DNA of 36,557 nucleotides from a virus, in IMG/VR virus record IMGVR_UViG_3300017598_001498, positions 1 through 36,557 of that record. One strand, 5' to 3'. Each line of letters begins with the position of its first letter. Position 1 is the first letter of the stretch. Made by a program: the position numbers and the translations under genes. The notes under the pieces were generated by a model. That model saw only the letters and a list, made by a program, of their open reading frames with translations, made no database searches and was not told the DNA's origin. Shown in pieces: positions 9,437 through 31,029 of this stretch.

Positions 9437-9613
9437 TTATCGATCTTTATAATCATTAATACCTATGATTAAAGCTTTATAATCACCAATCTTACCGCTC
9501 TTATGGCTTAAATTCTCTATTCTTTTAAGTTTTAAACCCCGCTCTGCATAAACATATGAAATAAGAATAAAAGGAATTAACAAAAATGAAATAAATATTA
9601 ATTTTAATTTCAT
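9437..9613 (-). pseudogene. Caspase-like (peptidase C14) N-terminal fragment
   Basis: ATG at 9613 (GGGGCGG upstream) begins a signal peptide (MKLKLIFISFLLIPFILISYVYA) and then reads ERGLKLKRIENLSHKSG and DYKALIIGINDYKDR before TAA. YKALIIGINDYKD is the first strand and loop of secreted caspase-like domains. The catalytic His and Cys segments should follow over ~200 residues, but only noncoding sequence follows. So this is a truncated gene, about 58 codons of an expected several hundred. An in-frame ATG at 9673 gives a poorer start. Confidence 0.55.
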
Positions 9614-9806
9614 AACAACCGCCCCATTTTTTTTGTTGATGGATGGACTTAAATATAAATTAAAAGTATCCAAAAAGCAATTTTAGAATTTTTATACTCC
9701 ATGGAACGATAGGGTATAACAGTAAAAGTCGAATTGATAAGGGTTTAATAAAAACAGAAGTTAAATTTATTGGATTTGAAATCGTTGATCTTAAAGTGAG
9801 GAAAAG
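9614..9806. other. Junction between accessory block and prophage late region
   Basis: About 190 bases between the caspase-like fragment and the holin gene. The plus-strand frame is open from about 9665 into the holin gene and reads ...GYNSKSRIDKGLIKTEVKFI and FEIVDLKVRKSYSLY, which looks coding-like and vaguely transposase-like. It lacks a start and is cut at the phage gene. I read it as a possible remnant at the left boundary of the prophage cluster. No att repeat could be identified, since the other prophage end is outside the window. Confidence 0.25.
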
Positions 9807-10343
9807 TTATTCCTTGTATTTACGCACACTAGAAGGACGACTTCCGAACCACCATGCAGTAGCCAATGACGTCAAAGCTATCATTTGAAAAATTATATAT
9901 TTTAAAATTTCCAACAATTCAGCTTTCGGCAAATCCTCAACACCATCAACCAATTCCCAAAAATAGTATGTCAATAATGATGTTATCGTAAGCAAATATA
10001 CTGTAATAATCGGCCTCATAGCCCCTTTTAAACCATCAATAACCTTAACACCTGTCTTAACCCTTTGAGATTTTAAACTTTCTGTAAACGCGCTTAATTC
10101 CGCCTCTTCAACCCTAATTTCTCCCTCAATTTGGGCTTTTTGCATTTTTTTATCTGCAACCGCAAGTTGGTGTGAGTTTTCAATTTCCAGTTCTTTGAGA
10201 CGAAAATCCATCATTTTAAGTTCGCGTTTATACTTTAATTCCTCAACCTTGCGCTCATTCCATTTTGTTAAAAATGAACCTACCATTCCAATGATTGAGC
10301 CTACGCCTGAAGATGAAAATATGCCTAAAATTATATCTAACAT
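9807..10343 (-). CDS. Phage holin, 3TM (GTA_holin_3TM-like)
   Basis: A 178-residue protein. The N-terminal hydrophobic glycine-rich segment (LDIILGIFSSSGVGSIIGMVGSFL) is followed by a long charged coiled coil (~28-95). Then come two membrane helices, ITVYLLTITSLLTYYFW and IIFQMIALTSLATAWWFG, and the terminal motif GSRPSSVRK. This is the layout of the GTA_holin_3TM family, which permeabilises the inner membrane at lysis. It is the last gene of the late cluster, just after DUF5675. No canonical endolysin is seen nearby; DUF5675 or a gene elsewhere may fill that role. Confidence 0.75.
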   Translation of the reverse strand: MLDIILGIFSSSGVGSIIGMVGSFLTKWNERKVEELKYKRELKMMDFRLKELEIENSHQLAVADKKMQKAQIEGEIRVEEAELSAFTESLKSQRVKTGVKVIDGLKGAMRPIITVYLLTITSLLTYYFWELVDGVEDLPKAELLEILKYIIFQMIALTSLATAWWFGSRPSSVRKYKE

Positions 10344-10355
10344 CTCAAAATCCCT

Positions 10356-10751
10356 TCAAATAATGATTAAAGAAAAAGGTTGTCTTTCCAATATTTCGAC
10401 AAACTCGAACAAAGCCGTTTTAGAGTTTAAAACAGCTGGCTGGTCAATCAGATAGCCTTTTCTCTTGCCAATCAAAATACAGCCGTTTGTATGATCAACA
10501 ACATTTCCATTATGTATTAAAATTCCACCCCTGCCTGGAACATCCTTAATCCAATAAATATCTTTATATTTCCCACTTGCTGATTCTTTTAAATATTCAG
10601 CTTGATATACGCCTTTAGGAATACAACTTATATTTCTTCGATTATCCCTCCATGGATTTTCTAAAGTATAAAAAGAAACACTCTCAACATACATAACCCC
10701 AATTATGCAGCTTTTATAATAGTATTTTCTTTTTAAGATTAGTTCATTCAT
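10356..10751 (-). CDS. DUF5675 family protein (lysis-region)
   Basis: A 131-residue protein whose start overlaps the previous stop (ATGA). The family hallmarks are present: FYTLENPWRDNRRNISCIPKGVYQAE, then WIKDVPGRGGILIHNGNVVDHTNGCILIGK. The conserved His in ILIHxGN and Cys in GCIL have the look of a catalytic pair, similar in spacing to L,D-transpeptidase-like folds. Family knowledge: DUF5675 proteins occur in phage lysis regions and mobile elements, and their biochemical function is not established. Here it lies between a membrane STAS-like gene and the holin, so cell-wall processing at lysis is a reasonable inference. Confidence 0.75.
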   Translation of the reverse strand: MNELILKRKYYYKSCIIGVMYVESVSFYTLENPWRDNRRNISCIPKGVYQAEYLKESASGKYKDIYWIKDVPGRGGILIHNGNVVDHTNGCILIGKRKGYLIDQPAVLNSKTALFEFVEILERQPFSLIII

Positions 10752-11302
10752 GATTCTTTTCGTCTTTCGCCTTTTCTTATTATTACAGACGATTTTTTGC
10801 TTGCCTCTATTATATTTTTTAGATTGATGTAGAGTTGTTCTAATCTTTCCGGCGCAAAAGGAGGGAACACTATTTGTACAACAATCTTATTTTTTGCAAG
10901 TGACTCAAGTACAGCTTTTCTAAATGCATCACAAAAACTATCATTCAGCCTATTGATATCCATAAAATTAAAAGTCACTGTGTGACAATTATTCTTCCTT
11001 TGATTTTCAATTGCTTCTAAAATTTGAGAACAAAACCAGTTTTCATCAGTGATAAACCATATGCCTTCTAAGTTATGCGACATGGTGGAATTCCAATGAA
11101 CTTTTTCCGCAAATATATTATCCAGATCAGTTTCGGGAATTTTTGTGAAATATTTATCTTTGATATATTTAGGTAAAACCTTAATGCCGAAATTAACTAA
11201 ATTGATTCCAATAAACATAGCAAAAACAAATAAAATAGAACCAAAATCTTTTCCTGAATATATCTTTAGTAAATTTATTATATGTTTTACTTCAAATTCC
11301 AT
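10748..11302 (-). CDS. Membrane-anchored STAS-like protein
   Basis: A 184-residue protein whose start overlaps the previous gene's end by 16 bases. One transmembrane helix lies near residues 22-40 (ILFVFAMFIGINLVNFG). The C-terminal ~110 residues follow the STAS-type order: a strand ending in CHTVTFNFMDINRLNDSF (the position of the anti-sigma-factor-antagonist Asp/Ser loop), a helix, strand IVVQIVFPP, helix. The Ser equivalent may be S142 in LNDSF (approximate count). The STAS call is by pattern and moderately secure. Coupled to a Cache-like sensor, it could pass an extracytoplasmic signal to a cytosolic partner. This is unusual for a prophage late operon. Confidence 0.4.
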   Translation of the reverse strand: MEFEVKHIINLLKIYSGKDFGSILFVFAMFIGINLVNFGIKVLPKYIKDKYFTKIPETDLDNIFAEKVHWNSTMSHNLEGIWFITDENWFCSQILEAIENQRKNNCHTVTFNFMDINRLNDSFCDAFRKAVLESLAKNKIVVQIVFPPFAPERLEQLYINLKNIIEASKKSSVIIRKGERRKES

Positions 11303-12093
11303 AATGCTTTTAAATTAGAAAGCCCTCTAAAAAATTGTTTCCAGTGCGAATACACGATTGCTATTATTGCCATCAGGATGGAAAGTTTTATGATTATGAT
11401 AATAGTAAAATTAATATTTTCAGCGTAAAACTGATGCATATCAGCCCCATCATAGAGAATAACAATATCTCCCCATTTTTTTTTATTTAGACTTACCTGG
11501 GCACTAGCTATGTAATACTTTTTGTCCGTGATAGGATCGCAGTATGTCCTTCTATTAAGATCAATAGATTTTCTCAGTTTTGGCCAAAAAGCACATCTTC
11601 TTGATAACTTTAAATCTTTCGCAATTGGCACATGAATCAAGCCATTATTTAGCGTTCCTATCCATGGGACATATCCTTTTGAATCAATTGCTAAACATAT
11701 GGCTATCGAGGAGTCGCGCGCCCCTATTTCCATCAAACGTTGACCAATTTTATTTGAAAATATATTTTCTGTATATTTTGTTTTGTAACGATCTATTATT
11801 GTATGTTTTCTGTCGAATTTGCCTATTACTAACTTTTTATACGAGCCCTCAAATTCATAAGGTTTGATAGGTAAATAAACCTGATCAAATATAATTCGAT
11901 GGTTCTTAATCAATACCCATTCTTTTAGGTGAATCGCCTCAGATTCAGCGTTTGATTTTTTTAATTCATGATAAAGCTTTTCAGTCTGCCCTTTAAACAA
12001 ATTAAGGAGCGGTAAAGTTACAATCAAGGCAAACACCAGAAATTTTAATGGTAATTGGTTGACTTGGTATATATCTTTAAATATTTTTATCAT
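11287..12093 (-). CDS. Two-TM extracytoplasmic sensor (Cache/MCP-like ligand domain)
   Basis: A 268-residue protein. TM1 is near residues 15-33 (LPLKFLVFALIVTLPLLNLF) and TM2 near 229-248 (FTIIIIIKLSILMAIIAIVY). The ~195-residue loop between them has the pattern seen in chemoreceptor sensory domains: CLAIDSKGYVPWIGTL, NRRTYCDPITDKKYYIASAQ and KKWGDIVILYDG (compare GYxPxHN...NR...W G). There is no HAMP, kinase or methyl-accepting domain; the chain ends 20 residues after TM2. The next gene overlaps it and brings a TM-STAS-like module, so the two may form a split sensor. No phage structural role is evident. Confidence 0.5.
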   Translation of the reverse strand: MIKIFKDIYQVNQLPLKFLVFALIVTLPLLNLFKGQTEKLYHELKKSNAESEAIHLKEWVLIKNHRIIFDQVYLPIKPYEFEGSYKKLVIGKFDRKHTIIDRYKTKYTENIFSNKIGQRLMEIGARDSSIAICLAIDSKGYVPWIGTLNNGLIHVPIAKDLKLSRRCAFWPKLRKSIDLNRRTYCDPITDKKYYIASAQVSLNKKKWGDIVILYDGADMHQFYAENINFTIIIIIKLSILMAIIAIVYSHWKQFFRGLSNLKALWNLK

Positions 12094-13099: not shown

Positions 13100-16000
13100 T
13101 TACCTTTGTGGGCCGTTATATATTTCATCCGGAGGAGTAAAGCCTCGACAATACAGTATAATATTGCCGTTATTAGTGTTATCCCACCTTAACTGAATTG
13201 TTCCTGTGCTGTCTGATGGTACTGTAGTCATTACGTCACATCTGACATAGTTTGATCGTACCACACCAAACGATACTCCATTTTCAGCCGATCCTTTGAC
13301 CCTATAATAGCCTGTGGTGGAACTATTTCCATAATAACCGTAGAATCTAACACAACATAATGCATCAAACAGAGGCACACTTAAAGTGTAATCCGTCCAT
13401 GTGTTACCAGGCGCGGCAGATATATTAGCTACATCTTTTTCGAATTTAACTTCTCGTGTACTATTGTAAAACTTTAAAATATTGCTGCCATTGTCTGTAA
13501 AAATCGCCCCTATACATCGCCAATCTGTATTAGTACCATGATAATAACCAACCTTATCTATATCTCGAGCTGGCGCATCTGTTGAATACTCAATTTCAGT
13601 AGCTGTTATTGTATACCCAGAAGCAGGGGGTTTAATATAAATATAATACCAAGAATCTGCCGTTAAATCCGTTAATTGCTTTGCTATTTGAGATTGGATC
13701 GTATAATATTCTTCAGATGTATCTCCTTTAATATGTGCAGAACCCGGATTTATATAGATCTCGTCAGCATCTTTATACTCAACCTTTATAGATTGAGCAC
13801 CCCGATTAAAAACCTCTTTTGCTTTTATTTGTGTAAATCCGGTATAAAATTTTTCATTCAATACAAACCCATGCGCATATACCCAGATAGAATCGGTCGA
13901 ACTTTCGCTATATTTTACTTGAATATAGCCAGAGCTATCGCAAACGAATTTCGTAGTCGTTTGGGTACCGGCCGGATTACTACCTTGATATCCTAAAAAA
14001 ATCCCGCTGCTATCTGTGCCTTTTTTTCGCCAATACGCAGTATTATTTGAACTGCTATACCGATGTGTCCACGTGGTAGCAATGCATATAGGACTTACGG
14101 GAGGGACTACGAGTTGATAATCTGTCCATGTTGTTGATGGCTTGCAATTTACACCACCAATTGATATATTCCACAGGATTTCATTAACAGAATAATCATA
14201 TTCTATTATTTCGCCCGAGTCGTTAGTTCTTATTATCCCTATACATCTCCAGTCTGTATTAGTATCATGATAATATCCATAATCATACTCGATTGGCGGT
14301 GTTGTCGAATACTCAATATCAACAGCTTGTATGTGCCCTTCGGATGGTACCTTAGCGTAAATATAATACCAGGCGTCCGAATTTGGGTTGCTTAGAGCTT
14401 TATTGAACTCTGATCTCACTTGATATATATCATCATAACTACCAGATTTAATATGAACGACGCCTTGGTTAACCTTGATAGTACTTGCATCTACATATTC
14501 AACTTTTATAGACTGAATACCAACTGCCTCTGTGCCCCGTGGTTCGGGAAGATCTACTTTTTTTAAAGCATAAACTTTTACGTATCCAGAAATGTCACCC
14601 GATCCCGTGAGCGTTATATTCATTTTAGTTACCGCATCAGTTGCATTCCAGCTACTTATATACTTATACCACGCTGTTGAGAAATCAGAAGCAATTCTAG
14701 AAGATTCGCAAACCACTATTCTTTTCAAATCTTTTTTTAGTTGCAATCTAGATTGAGAAAAATTATGGGTTGAATTTGGGGCTGCTGCGCCAAGGGAAGC
14801 TGCACCCCCTGTTGCTGTATCCGTACCGTCTCCATAATATTTATATTTATAATTATTAGCAGTATCTCCATTAAAATTTAATGCTAAGCCTCTCCAATTG
14901 CTGGTAGGATTATCGTACGCTGCTTCTATAATTATATCAGGATAGGCTTCCCCATCTATCTCTATTGTTTGATCAAACCCGTCCGTTAATTCATATTCAC
15001 CTACTACTTCGTAAGCTTTAAAATTAGATGGTATAGCAGTAGACACAGGGAGATTTACTTTTTTGAATTTGTATACTCTGATAGTTCCTGTAATAGCGAC
15101 ATCTGTGAATATCCTCATCTTAGTAACTTCATCAGTCGTATTTTTCCATGCTGTTCTATAACTCAAGTGGTGATAATTTGAATTTATATCGTCAACAGCT
15201 ACTGTGTTGGAAAGACACAATCTACGCTGACCTGATTTTAAGTATACTTTTGAATTCCCTGCGATATGCTGATTTGCATTGCTCCAGTTTACATACATAC
15301 AATTTATGTCTGATTCTCCATGCTGAGCGTTTGCAGAATCATTATATTCGCCTAAATAACCTGAACGATAATTAGCATTGCTGTCATCATTAAATTGTAT
15401 TGCAAAAGTCGTGTCTGCTATTCCTGAGATGTACGAATACTCTATAAATAATATCTCGTCGACGTTTTCTCCATGCAGATTTGTTAACGTTTCATCCAAT
15501 ATTTTATTATTTAATTCATATTCTCCTACAATTTCATAAGCTTTAAAATTTGTTGAAACACCGCTGTCACCACCGCCCCCTGATCCCTCAGGAATCGCCC
15601 AATTTCCTTCACCGTTTAGGAACTCGGCAGGTAAGCTAGATAATTTGGGCAATAGTCCATGCGCCGATTGCGAAGCGTCTAAATCAGTATTATCATCAGG
15701 AGCGTCTAAATCGTCTAATTTGATTGCGTCAGAGCCTCCAGAATGATGATTTGACCCATGGGTTATACCTGAGTATAGGGTATTATGATTATGTCCAATA
15801 ACGGCCAAATTATCCAGTAATGAATTAATTTCTGATTCTAAATAGTACCTGTCATCATGATTGTGACCAGTATCTTCTTTATTAGACATCTGAGTGTCTA
15901 TTTCTGTTTCTGTGTAATATCTATCGTCATGCGAATGAGGATCATCAGATTTTTCGGCTAATAAATCGTCAATTTCAGTCTCTGTATAATATAGATCATT

Positions 16001-16297
16001 ATGATCATGCGAACTAATCGGGTTCGACCAATTGCCCAAGCCATTTAAAAATTCATCTCCGTTCCCGGACAGTTTAGATAGTAAGCCGTGTCCTGAAACA
16101 GAAGCGTTTAGATCGGTGTTGTCATCAGGAGCTAAACAGTCATCAAGCTTTGGTATTCCACCACCGCCTCCGCCCTGTTCTAAATCATCAACGCGGGTTT
16201 CAAGATCCAAGGTTGTTGTACGTAAGACTTCTAACGCTTCCCTTGCAAGTTTTTCAAATCTATCTGTGTCGGGTATTGGAAATACTGGGATAGTCAT
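13100..16297 (-). CDS. Large phage tail fibre protein with duplicated modules
   Basis: A 1065-residue protein; ATG overlaps the previous stop (TAATG). HxH motifs occur at residues 97, 121, 145 and 169, an exact 24-residue period, within the repeat 'HxHDDRYYTETEID'. HxH repeats of this sort bind metal along trimeric fibre shafts. Flanking them are two copies of a module (LDAPDDNTDLxAS...GLLxKLS...EFLNGxGNW, ~49-92 and ~194-234). The distal half holds two further tandem duplications: FKAYEIVGEYEL at ~251 and ~427, and QSIKVEYxDA at ~595 and ~835, the latter ending in WTDYxLxVP and Y/W-rich beta domains. The likely role is receptor binding. The C-terminus shows no self-cleaving chaperone. Confidence 0.8.
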   Translation of the reverse strand: MTIPVFPIPDTDRFEKLAREALEVLRTTTLDLETRVDDLEQGGGGGGIPKLDDCLAPDDNTDLNASVSGHGLLSKLSGNGDEFLNGLGNWSNPISSHDHNDLYYTETEIDDLLAEKSDDPHSHDDRYYTETEIDTQMSNKEDTGHNHDDRYYLESEINSLLDNLAVIGHNHNTLYSGITHGSNHHSGGSDAIKLDDLDAPDDNTDLDASQSAHGLLPKLSSLPAEFLNGEGNWAIPEGSGGGGDSGVSTNFKAYEIVGEYELNNKILDETLTNLHGENVDEILFIEYSYISGIADTTFAIQFNDDSNANYRSGYLGEYNDSANAQHGESDINCMYVNWSNANQHIAGNSKVYLKSGQRRLCLSNTVAVDDINSNYHHLSYRTAWKNTTDEVTKMRIFTDVAITGTIRVYKFKKVNLPVSTAIPSNFKAYEVVGEYELTDGFDQTIEIDGEAYPDIIIEAAYDNPTSNWRGLALNFNGDTANNYKYKYYGDGTDTATGGAASLGAAAPNSTHNFSQSRLQLKKDLKRIVVCESSRIASDFSTAWYKYISSWNATDAVTKMNITLTGSGDISGYVKVYALKKVDLPEPRGTEAVGIQSIKVEYVDASTIKVNQGVVHIKSGSYDDIYQVRSEFNKALSNPNSDAWYYIYAKVPSEGHIQAVDIEYSTTPPIEYDYGYYHDTNTDWRCIGIIRTNDSGEIIEYDYSVNEILWNISIGGVNCKPSTTWTDYQLVVPPVSPICIATTWTHRYSSSNNTAYWRKKGTDSSGIFLGYQGSNPAGTQTTTKFVCDSSGYIQVKYSESSTDSIWVYAHGFVLNEKFYTGFTQIKAKEVFNRGAQSIKVEYKDADEIYINPGSAHIKGDTSEEYYTIQSQIAKQLTDLTADSWYYIYIKPPASGYTITATEIEYSTDAPARDIDKVGYYHGTNTDWRCIGAIFTDNGSNILKFYNSTREVKFEKDVANISAAPGNTWTDYTLSVPLFDALCCVRFYGYYGNSSTTGYYRVKGSAENGVSFGVVRSNYVRCDVMTTVPSDSTGTIQLRWDNTNNGNIILYCRGFTPPDEIYNGPQR

Positions 16298-29768: not shown

Positions 29769-29820
29769 GTTCGTTTTTGCGAAGTGTCCCTATTTTTAAT
29801 TTTTTAAAATCTAAGTATAC

Positions 29821-29848
29821 ACTATACCAATTATATCCTATATGTCAA
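29821..29848 (-). promoter_or_regulatory. Sigma-70-type promoter upstream of the tail tube gene
   Basis: Minus strand: TTGACA (29848-29843), 16-base spacer, TATAGT (29826-29821). Transcription would start near 29813 and meet the terminator at 29768-29731 after about 80 bases. The product could be an ~85-base small RNA, or a leader needing antitermination to reach the tail genes. Confidence 0.55.
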
Positions 29849-30011
29849 CATATAAAATTGAGCAAACTTTATTATCTGAATTTAAACAAGTTCAATATGT
29901 TTAAAAATTAAATTCGCAAAGATGATACCAAATCCAAAAAATTTATTGCCAAAAAACTTTTTATTGAAAAATTAATAAAATCCATATATTTTAAAACCAT
30001 GCATAAATTAA

Positions 30012-30057
30012 AAATGCGGTAAAGAATTAAATGAAAGAGTAGATAGTAAATCATAAG
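30012..30057 (+). pseudogene. HU/IHF gene 3'-end remnant
   Basis: The bases encode KCGKELNERVDSKS and a stop, matching the end of the IHF-like protein at 6895-7176 (FKCGKELKERVDNKS). Nucleotides match 7132-7177 at 41 of 46 positions. An upstream in-frame stop and loss of the rest show it is a fragment. A further ~20-base match follows at 30141-30160 (7260-7279 in the intact copy), at nearly the same distance from the stop (91 and 90 bases). Confidence 0.7.
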
Positions 30058-30282
30058 AATTTAATATTATTAAGAGTATCAGGCGTTGGTGCGCAAAATT
30101 AAAAAAATGAAACATCGAGGTACATATGTGCCCAAATAACAAAGTACAGATAGTGGCAAGAAGCTTTCCTGATAACCAAATTTTTTTACGACACAATATG
30201 CCCAAAAACATGGGAAGTACGAGGCCGAGCAGCATCTGGTTTTTCGGCACATATATCCACAACCGTAAGGAGATTTTTCACA

Positions 30283-31029
30283 ATGGACATCCCAAGAATA
30301 TTCAACATCACCGAAAGTGCTCACCGCATCCATAACCCGTTCACACCCGAAAAGTTCGCCACTCTCGGCGCAGCGCTGCGTATGGAATCAGGGACCCGAG
30401 TGCTTGACCTCGGCAGCGGTTCGGGGGAGATGCTATGCACCTGGGCACGCGATCACGGTGTCATCGGCACCGGCATCGATATGAGCCAATTGTTCACAGA
30501 GCAGGCAAAAAAACGTGCTGAAGAACTCGGCGTCGCCGATCAAGTCAAATTCATCCATGGCGATGCTGCTGGCTACGTCTCTGAGGTGAAAATTGATGTA
30601 GCAGCCTGTGTCGGTGCCACTTGGATCGCCGGCGGAGTTGCCGGCACTATCGAGCTTCTGGTGCGGAGCCTGCGCACCGGAGGGATCATCCTCATCGGCG
30701 AGTCCTACTGGCGGCAGTTACCGCCGACGGAAGATGTTGCCAAGGGGTGTCTTGCCAACTCGATCTCCGACTTTCTCATGCTTCCAGAACTTCTCGCGTC
30801 TTTCGACCATCTTGGCTACGATGTCGTTGAAATGGTTCTGGCTGACCAAGACGGCTGGGACAGATACGAGGCGGTCAAATGGCTCACCATGCGCCGATGG
30901 CTTGAGGCCAATCCCGATGACGAGTTCGCGAAAGATGTTCGAGCCAAACTGACCTCGGAACCCAAGCGCTACGCCGCTTACACGCGTGAATACTTAGGTT
31001 GGGGCGTGTTCGCACTAATGGCGAGATGA
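30283..31029 (+). CDS. Class I SAM-dependent methyltransferase (inserted moron)
   Basis: A 248-residue protein with AAGGAG 10 bases before ATG. Rossmann-type SAM motifs: VLDLGSGSGE (40-49, motif I), GIDMS (64-68, acidic loop) and FIHGDA (90-95). The N-terminus (IPRIFNITESAHRIHNPFTPEK) and C-terminus (YTREYLGWGVFALMAR) are typical of a widespread small-molecule methyltransferase group; the substrate is unknown. It lies on the plus strand inside a minus-strand late operon. By count, two sampled 60-base rows have 62-67% G+C against a clearly A+T-rich surrounding, so recent acquisition is likely. There is no phage function. Confidence 0.85.
   Translation: MDIPRIFNITESAHRIHNPFTPEKFATLGAALRMESGTRVLDLGSGSGEMLCTWARDHGVIGTGIDMSQLFTEQAKKRAEELGVADQVKFIHGDAAGYVSEVKIDVAACVGATWIAGGVAGTIELLVRSLRTGGIILIGESYWRQLPPTEDVAKGCLANSISDFLMLPELLASFDHLGYDVVEMVLADQDGWDRYEAVKWLTMRRWLEANPDDEFAKDVRAKLTSEPKRYAAYTREYLGWGVFALMAR

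Follow-up and report, generated by a model that had tools for sequence, protein, structure and literature searches.

Overlapping genes for a remote chemoreceptor-type sensor and a putative STAS-like membrane protein in the late operon of a phage

Phages can borrow quorum-sensing receptors, as is known for soluble ones. In phage T4 periplasmic sensing by the RI protein sets the time of lysis (PMC8385771, PMC11413866). Among bacteria, the membrane sensor phosphatase SiaA acts on SiaC (PMC7647112, PMC8457831), and a membrane sensor paired with a SiaC-like protein can therefore transmit a signal. The locus described here encodes a membrane sensor-like protein next to a candidate STAS-like protein.

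The window, i.e. the whole 36.6-kb virus record that was analysed, carries bacterial genes left of approximately 9.4 kb. According to Pfam these encode two SBP_bac_3 proteins, an endonuclease/phosphatase-family protein and a CsgG/LpoB plus FGE-sulfatase protein. The host probably belongs to the class Desulfobacteria, because the best relatives of the latter protein are mostly found there (Desulfococcaceae, Desulfobacteraceae). Phage genes extend from 9.8 kb to the end of the window, nearly all on the minus strand, and include a GP7-type major capsid protein, head-tail connectors, a tail terminator and a tape measure protein of 1819 aa. Near the host/prophage boundary lies a minus-strand fragment (9437-9673) whose start resembles a signal peptide and which contains a caspase/C14-like ALIIGINDYKDR motif. 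It is cut short and may mark the integration point. A methyltransferase gene on the plus strand (30283-31029, 56% GC) lies inside the minus-strand tail/connector region (36% GC) and is preceded by an AT-rich stretch with 24% GC at 29800-30199; it is likely a recent foreign insertion (moron). The number of promoter-like sites equals the shuffled expectation, and neither tRNAs nor Rfam families were found. The late operon contains the following genes, in order of transcription:

13100-16297, minus strand: fibre-like protein, 1065 aa
12097-13128, minus strand: protein of 343 aa, family unassigned
11287-12093, minus strand: P0001, sensor-like protein with two TM helices, 268 aa
10748-11302, minus strand: P0002, candidate STAS-like protein with one TM helix, 184 aa
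10356-10751, minus strand: DUF5675 protein, 131 aa (Pfam, E 1.4e-27)
9807-10343, minus strand: multi-TM protein of phrog_6637, 178 aa (E 4e-17)

P0001 starts 3 nt past the stop of the 343-aa gene, P0001 and P0002 overlap by 16 nt, and P0002 overlaps the DUF5675 gene by 4 nt. Codon statistics drawn from the phage structural genes give the P0001 frame a score of 0.02 (other five frames: -0.33 or lower) and the P0002 frame a score of 0.14 (other five frames: -0.18 or lower). The two overlapping reading frames reported in the initial annotation are thus present at this place on the minus strand, each as the best frame of six. The libraries searched gave no usable family match for the 343-aa protein between the fibre and sensor genes; by eye it is possibly a TIM-barrel hydrolase. 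We interpret the pair as a small cargo for signalling that a temperate siphophage of a Desulfobacteria-like host carries in its late operon. It would act as outlined below, and we give this reading, mechanism included, a probability of about 0.35.

The TM helices of P0001 lie at residues 14-32 and 222-245, approximately, with hydropathy peaks at 14-32 and 222-240, which agrees with the two-TM receptor annotated before. The charge around the helices suggests that the middle part is periplasmic. About 20 cytoplasmic residues remain after the second helix (TM2), where the protein stops. HAMP has no Pfam match here and no output domain is present, as had been annotated. Single-sequence comparison with 389 Desulfobacteria genomes yields matches with E-values of 4.3e-5, 1.2e-3 and 1.6e-3. 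These are proteins of about 300 aa with the architecture TM-sensor-TM-HAMP and without output domain, and the alignment covers residues 102-247 including TM2. Against a profile built from 48 Desulfobacteria proteins P0001 obtains 21.9 bits, versus 8.8 bits for the best of 5000 domain shuffles, and an earlier profile of 10 proteins had the same outcome. When the profile is run on the window and 86 viral loci, about ten thousand ORFs in all, P0001 is its sole significant match (E 5e-5). Comparison with the sensor family by hhalign results in E-values of 2.2e-5 to 1.5e-6 and probabilities of 76-90. Because of the distance between 21.9 and 8.8 bits, and because no ORF of the 86 viral loci is significant, the homology to the Desulfobacteria sensor family is, as judged from sequence, real but remote (about 25% identity).

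The sensor family is recognised by the blocks FDxxYxPIP, K[YF]HT[KQ]YD, D.NGY[LV]PTHN, NRTKR, DTGE and HWG.xR[IV]G. P0001 carries the pattern GYVP...NRR...KKWG above chance and retains the blocks FDxxYLPI, RYKTKY, DSKGYVP, an RR and KKWG. The THN and NRTKR motifs are replaced; the respective sequences read GYVPWIG and SRRCAF, with GYxP, R and WG kept. We therefore class P0001 as a divergent relative rather than a typical member. The earlier assignment to chemoreceptor sensory domains, based on a GYxP...NR...WG pattern, holds at the level of this family, by a remote but statistically separated homology. The "Cache-like" part of that assignment stands for the sensor family and not for an established Cache fold, since Pfam gives no Cache match and the single-sequence model has pLDDT values below 50 over residues 43-226. 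In this weak model a long helix spans residues 13-50 near the N-terminus, and three strands come late, ahead of TM2; its agreement with the Cache layout as described (PMC4822843) is confined to the long helix after TM1 and the three strands.

Profile matches to the sensor family occur in 90 of the 389 Desulfobacteria genomes, with many of the weak ones spanning only the TM2/HAMP part. The strong ones form a recurrent cassette, in which a secreted copy of the sensor domain lies beside a TM-sensor-TM-HAMP gene. Examples of TM-GYxPTHN-TM-HAMP receptors are encoded at 1317-2243 of locus L199 and at 5282-6184 of L203, and the HAMP domain of the L175 receptor is matched by Pfam with an E-value of 1.5e-8. 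Cassettes (loci L199, L200, L201, L202, L203 and L225-L247) sometimes include "VMGPMA" proteins of 130-170 aa. A Roadblock/LC7-like gene is found in 8 of 27 host receptor loci, the Pfam match being weak except in one locus. The copy of Pfam searched has no model for the GYxPTHN sensor domain. In an MCP of locus L248 (1489-3063) a domain of the GYxPTHN type is located at the C-terminus, after the signalling domain; the domain is thus not always periplasmic and can be cytoplasmic. To be output-less is the normal state of the family's membrane form, and P0001 shares this lack with the host receptors. The phage copy stands out by the absence of HAMP, by its partner gene and by occurring in a virus at all. 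The earlier view that no such layout had been described is to be divided accordingly: output-less receptors recur in Desulfobacteria, whereas it is unusual for one to be paired with a TM-STAS-like gene and to be located in a phage.

These host receptors bear on another explanation, according to which the HAMP-less P0001 pairs or competes with TM-sensor-TM-HAMP receptors of the host as a decoy or dominant-negative copy. Their pathway would thereby be shut down, either in the lysogen or at a late stage of infection, and P0002 would be a separate membrane protein. P0001 retains TM1, sensor domain and TM2 and stops about 20 residues later, and its closest relatives are output-less host receptors, often next to a secreted copy; 8 of the 27 loci also have a Roadblock/LC7-like gene. 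However, a sequence of about 25% identity with replaced THN and NRTKR motifs argues against a dimerising copy, and the tight overlap of P0001 and P0002 suggests joint action. We regard this explanation as unlikely.

P0002 has one TM helix at residues 22-40 by hydropathy, and the charge around it suggests a cytoplasmic C-terminal domain. A single-sequence model of low confidence (mean pLDDT 56) contains a beta-alpha domain at about 75-179, with the order b-a-b-a-b-a-b over residues 80-177. In Foldseek this model reaches no significant E-value; the best-covered targets of the weak model include RsbS, TM1081 and the STAS domain of a Vibrio permease, and a viral DUF4325 protein is among the rows with a TMt of 0.59. 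VIA-align places STAS-fold chains at ranks 1, 2, 4, 5, 6, 7 and 10 with Z of 6.9-7.8, where all matches stay below 8, a range in which, as the tool warns, a common arrangement may be reflected. STAS proteins fill most of the top rows, and the chains in the list that we take to be such proteins include RsbS (7.8), RsfB (7.6), SULTR4;1 (7.2), SiaC (7.1), TM1081 (6.9) and SpoIIAA (6.0-6.2). Pfam gives no match to STAS (PF01740/PF13466). With a STAS profile built from Desulfobacteria genomes P0002 ranks 74th among the query and 5000 shuffles and is not separable from them. With the profile of the STAS-like DUF4325 (PF14213) it ranks first of 5001 by a margin of just 0.4 bits, and a VTFNF...SF block is aligned. 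Sequence support for STAS is at most marginal. Since Z values are below 8, the mean pLDDT is 56 and the sequence scores are marginal or inseparable from shuffles, a STAS-like fold of P0002 is suggested by the model and no more than plausible. Of the "TM-STAS-like" product in the initial annotation the single TM helix is retained, and STAS is retained by fold comparison of a weak model and not by sequence. Matches of P0002 to i-spanin (E 0.059) and, over a helical stretch, to Csn2 (PADLOC, E 0.0012) were put aside as probable chance.

DUF5675 proteins share an ILIHxGN...GCI motif, which resembles the H...GC active-site pattern of L,D-transpeptidases, and the DUF5675 protein is a probable cell-wall enzyme of this kind. 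Position and TM pattern let the phrog_6637 protein appear holin-like. Neither Pfam nor PHROGs holds a curated function for DUF5675 or phrog_6637. In 30 out of 83 loci the gene for the TM protein lies behind that for DUF5675 at a distance of at most 400 nt (23 distinct DUF5675 sequences). The same order has been annotated in Vibrio phages without function (PMC9229204). The two genes probably, not provably, form a lysis module. The pair had been described as lying directly before DUF5675 and the holin, of which the position is correct and the identity as holin and lysis genes lacks a curated basis. P0001 and P0002 are absent from all of these loci. The pair is thus accessory and inserted between the DUF5675/TM module and the fibre region.

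Location next to this module would also fit an accessory lysis or antiholin role, in which both proteins are membrane-tethered regulators of the holin-like neighbour and the sensor fold is reused for binding instead of ligand sensing. The pair shares its strand with the DUF5675/TM genes, directly precedes them and has overlapping starts, and the periplasmic domain of T4 RI can hold a holin (PMC8385771, PMC11413866). On the other hand, the module occurs in 30 other viral loci without P0001 and P0002 and so does not need them, and the lysis function of the neighbours is itself deduced. This role appears doubtful to us.

Searches for relatives of the pair covered several collections. In IMG/VR exact peptide patterns reveal no protein close to P0001, P0002, the 343-aa protein or the TM protein, and in genome contigs none close to P0001. 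GenBank phages and plasmids yield only chance matches to P0001 and P0002 in tblastn; the same is true for P0002 in the 389 Desulfobacteria genomes as well as next to the host receptors. Sequence searches of Pfam, NCBIfam, PHROGs, PADLOC and PDB provide no usable assignment for either protein, and a second search with P0001 across the order found no closer relative. No encoded member of the sensor family was confirmed when 2.9 million IMG/VR contigs were scanned twice under guidance of alignments; as these scans rely on short exact motifs, they could miss viral members as divergent as P0001. The family phrog_6697 (E 0.0018 to P0001) is not useful, because it matches 9 of 14 control genomes; it has one doubtful match in 49 viral records. 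The initial annotation had proposed looking for the pair in other prophages, and no other phage with it was found. P0001/P0002 therefore remains a single instance in IMG/VR, GenBank phages and plasmids, and conserved linkage or selection of the pair is unsupported.

A single instance is also expected of passenger genes, i.e. host DNA acquired by imprecise excision or recombination, with no role in the phage and no selection. The codon-usage fit of 0.02 and 0.14, versus about 0.2-0.5 in most structural genes, points in the same direction. Against this stand intact frames that tightly overlap flanking phage genes on the same strand, and a P0001 that has diverged much from the host copies with its frame retained; we consider an origin without function quite improbable. 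Superinfection exclusion, with inner-membrane proteins expressed late or in the lysogen blocking DNA entry of related phages, is very unlikely. It would suit the small size of the two membrane proteins and their position close to the prophage end, with host genes to the left of approximately 9.4 kb, but they bear no likeness to known defence proteins (PADLOC: the weak Csn2 match, E 0.0012) and a homologous sensor domain would be unnecessary.

In the signalling reading, which we prefer, P0001 would be an output-less periplasmic receptor related to those of the host, presumably co-expressed late with P0002, which would hold a STAS-like domain at the cytoplasmic side of the inner membrane. The periplasmic domain may read a small molecule or the state of the envelope, and TM2 with the short tail would act on the membrane-anchored P0002. 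Through protein-protein contact P0002 would then influence one of two targets: the holin-like neighbour, whereby lysis time would be set, or a host pathway of the SiaC/RsbS kind, be it a partner switch (anti-sigma/phosphatase) or a c-di-GMP pathway. The likeliest role of the pair, at low confidence, is to control lysis or a partner switch of the host. The tight overlapping gene order with DUF5675 and a TM protein, a pair conserved elsewhere, was counted in favour of this reading, and the lack of HAMP or another known transmission element in P0001 was counted against it. Its boldest version, a split transmembrane system of the phage in which a captured HAMP-less receptor signals via a separate membrane-anchored STAS-like protein and sets lysis time by the surroundings, is a long shot.

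If true, a virus would read its surroundings in an unusual manner, by means of a periplasmic chemoreceptor-type sensor encoded beside probable lysis genes: through P0001 the phage may sense the surroundings of the cell. A recurrent host receptor family also emerges. The Pfam copy searched contains no model for it, and its membrane form is output-less in host and phage. How output-less receptors pass on their signal is a testable question.

The Desulfobacteria receptors resemble P0001 in the two TM helices around the sensor domain, in the blocks FDxxYxPI, KYxTKY, D.xGYxP and WG, and in having no kinase, MCP or cyclase output. Unlike them, P0001 has neither HAMP nor a secreted sensor partner, and its neighbour is a TM-STAS-like gene, where Roadblock-like genes accompany the receptors. 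In SiaABCD of Pseudomonas aeruginosa a membrane sensor is co-encoded with SiaC, itself a fold match of P0002 (Z 7.1). SiaA possesses a PP2C phosphatase, and SiaC is soluble, switched by phosphorylation and accompanied by the kinase SiaB and the cyclase SiaD; in contrast, no PP2C phosphatase, kinase or cyclase was found in P0001, P0002 or the other Pfam-scanned proteins of the window. The T4 antiholin RI is likewise a phage protein whose periplasmic domain reads the environment, which for the present pair is a proposal. RI differs in its cleavable signal peptide, no sequence or domain similarity to P0001 has been shown, and it is not known to contain a chemoreceptor-like domain. The phage quorum-sensing receptors (VqmA of VP882, phage LuxR) are phage copies of a host sensor family, as is P0001. 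They are cytoplasmic, DNA-binding and govern the choice between lysis and lysogeny, whereas P0001 and P0002 are membrane proteins encoded in a late operon.
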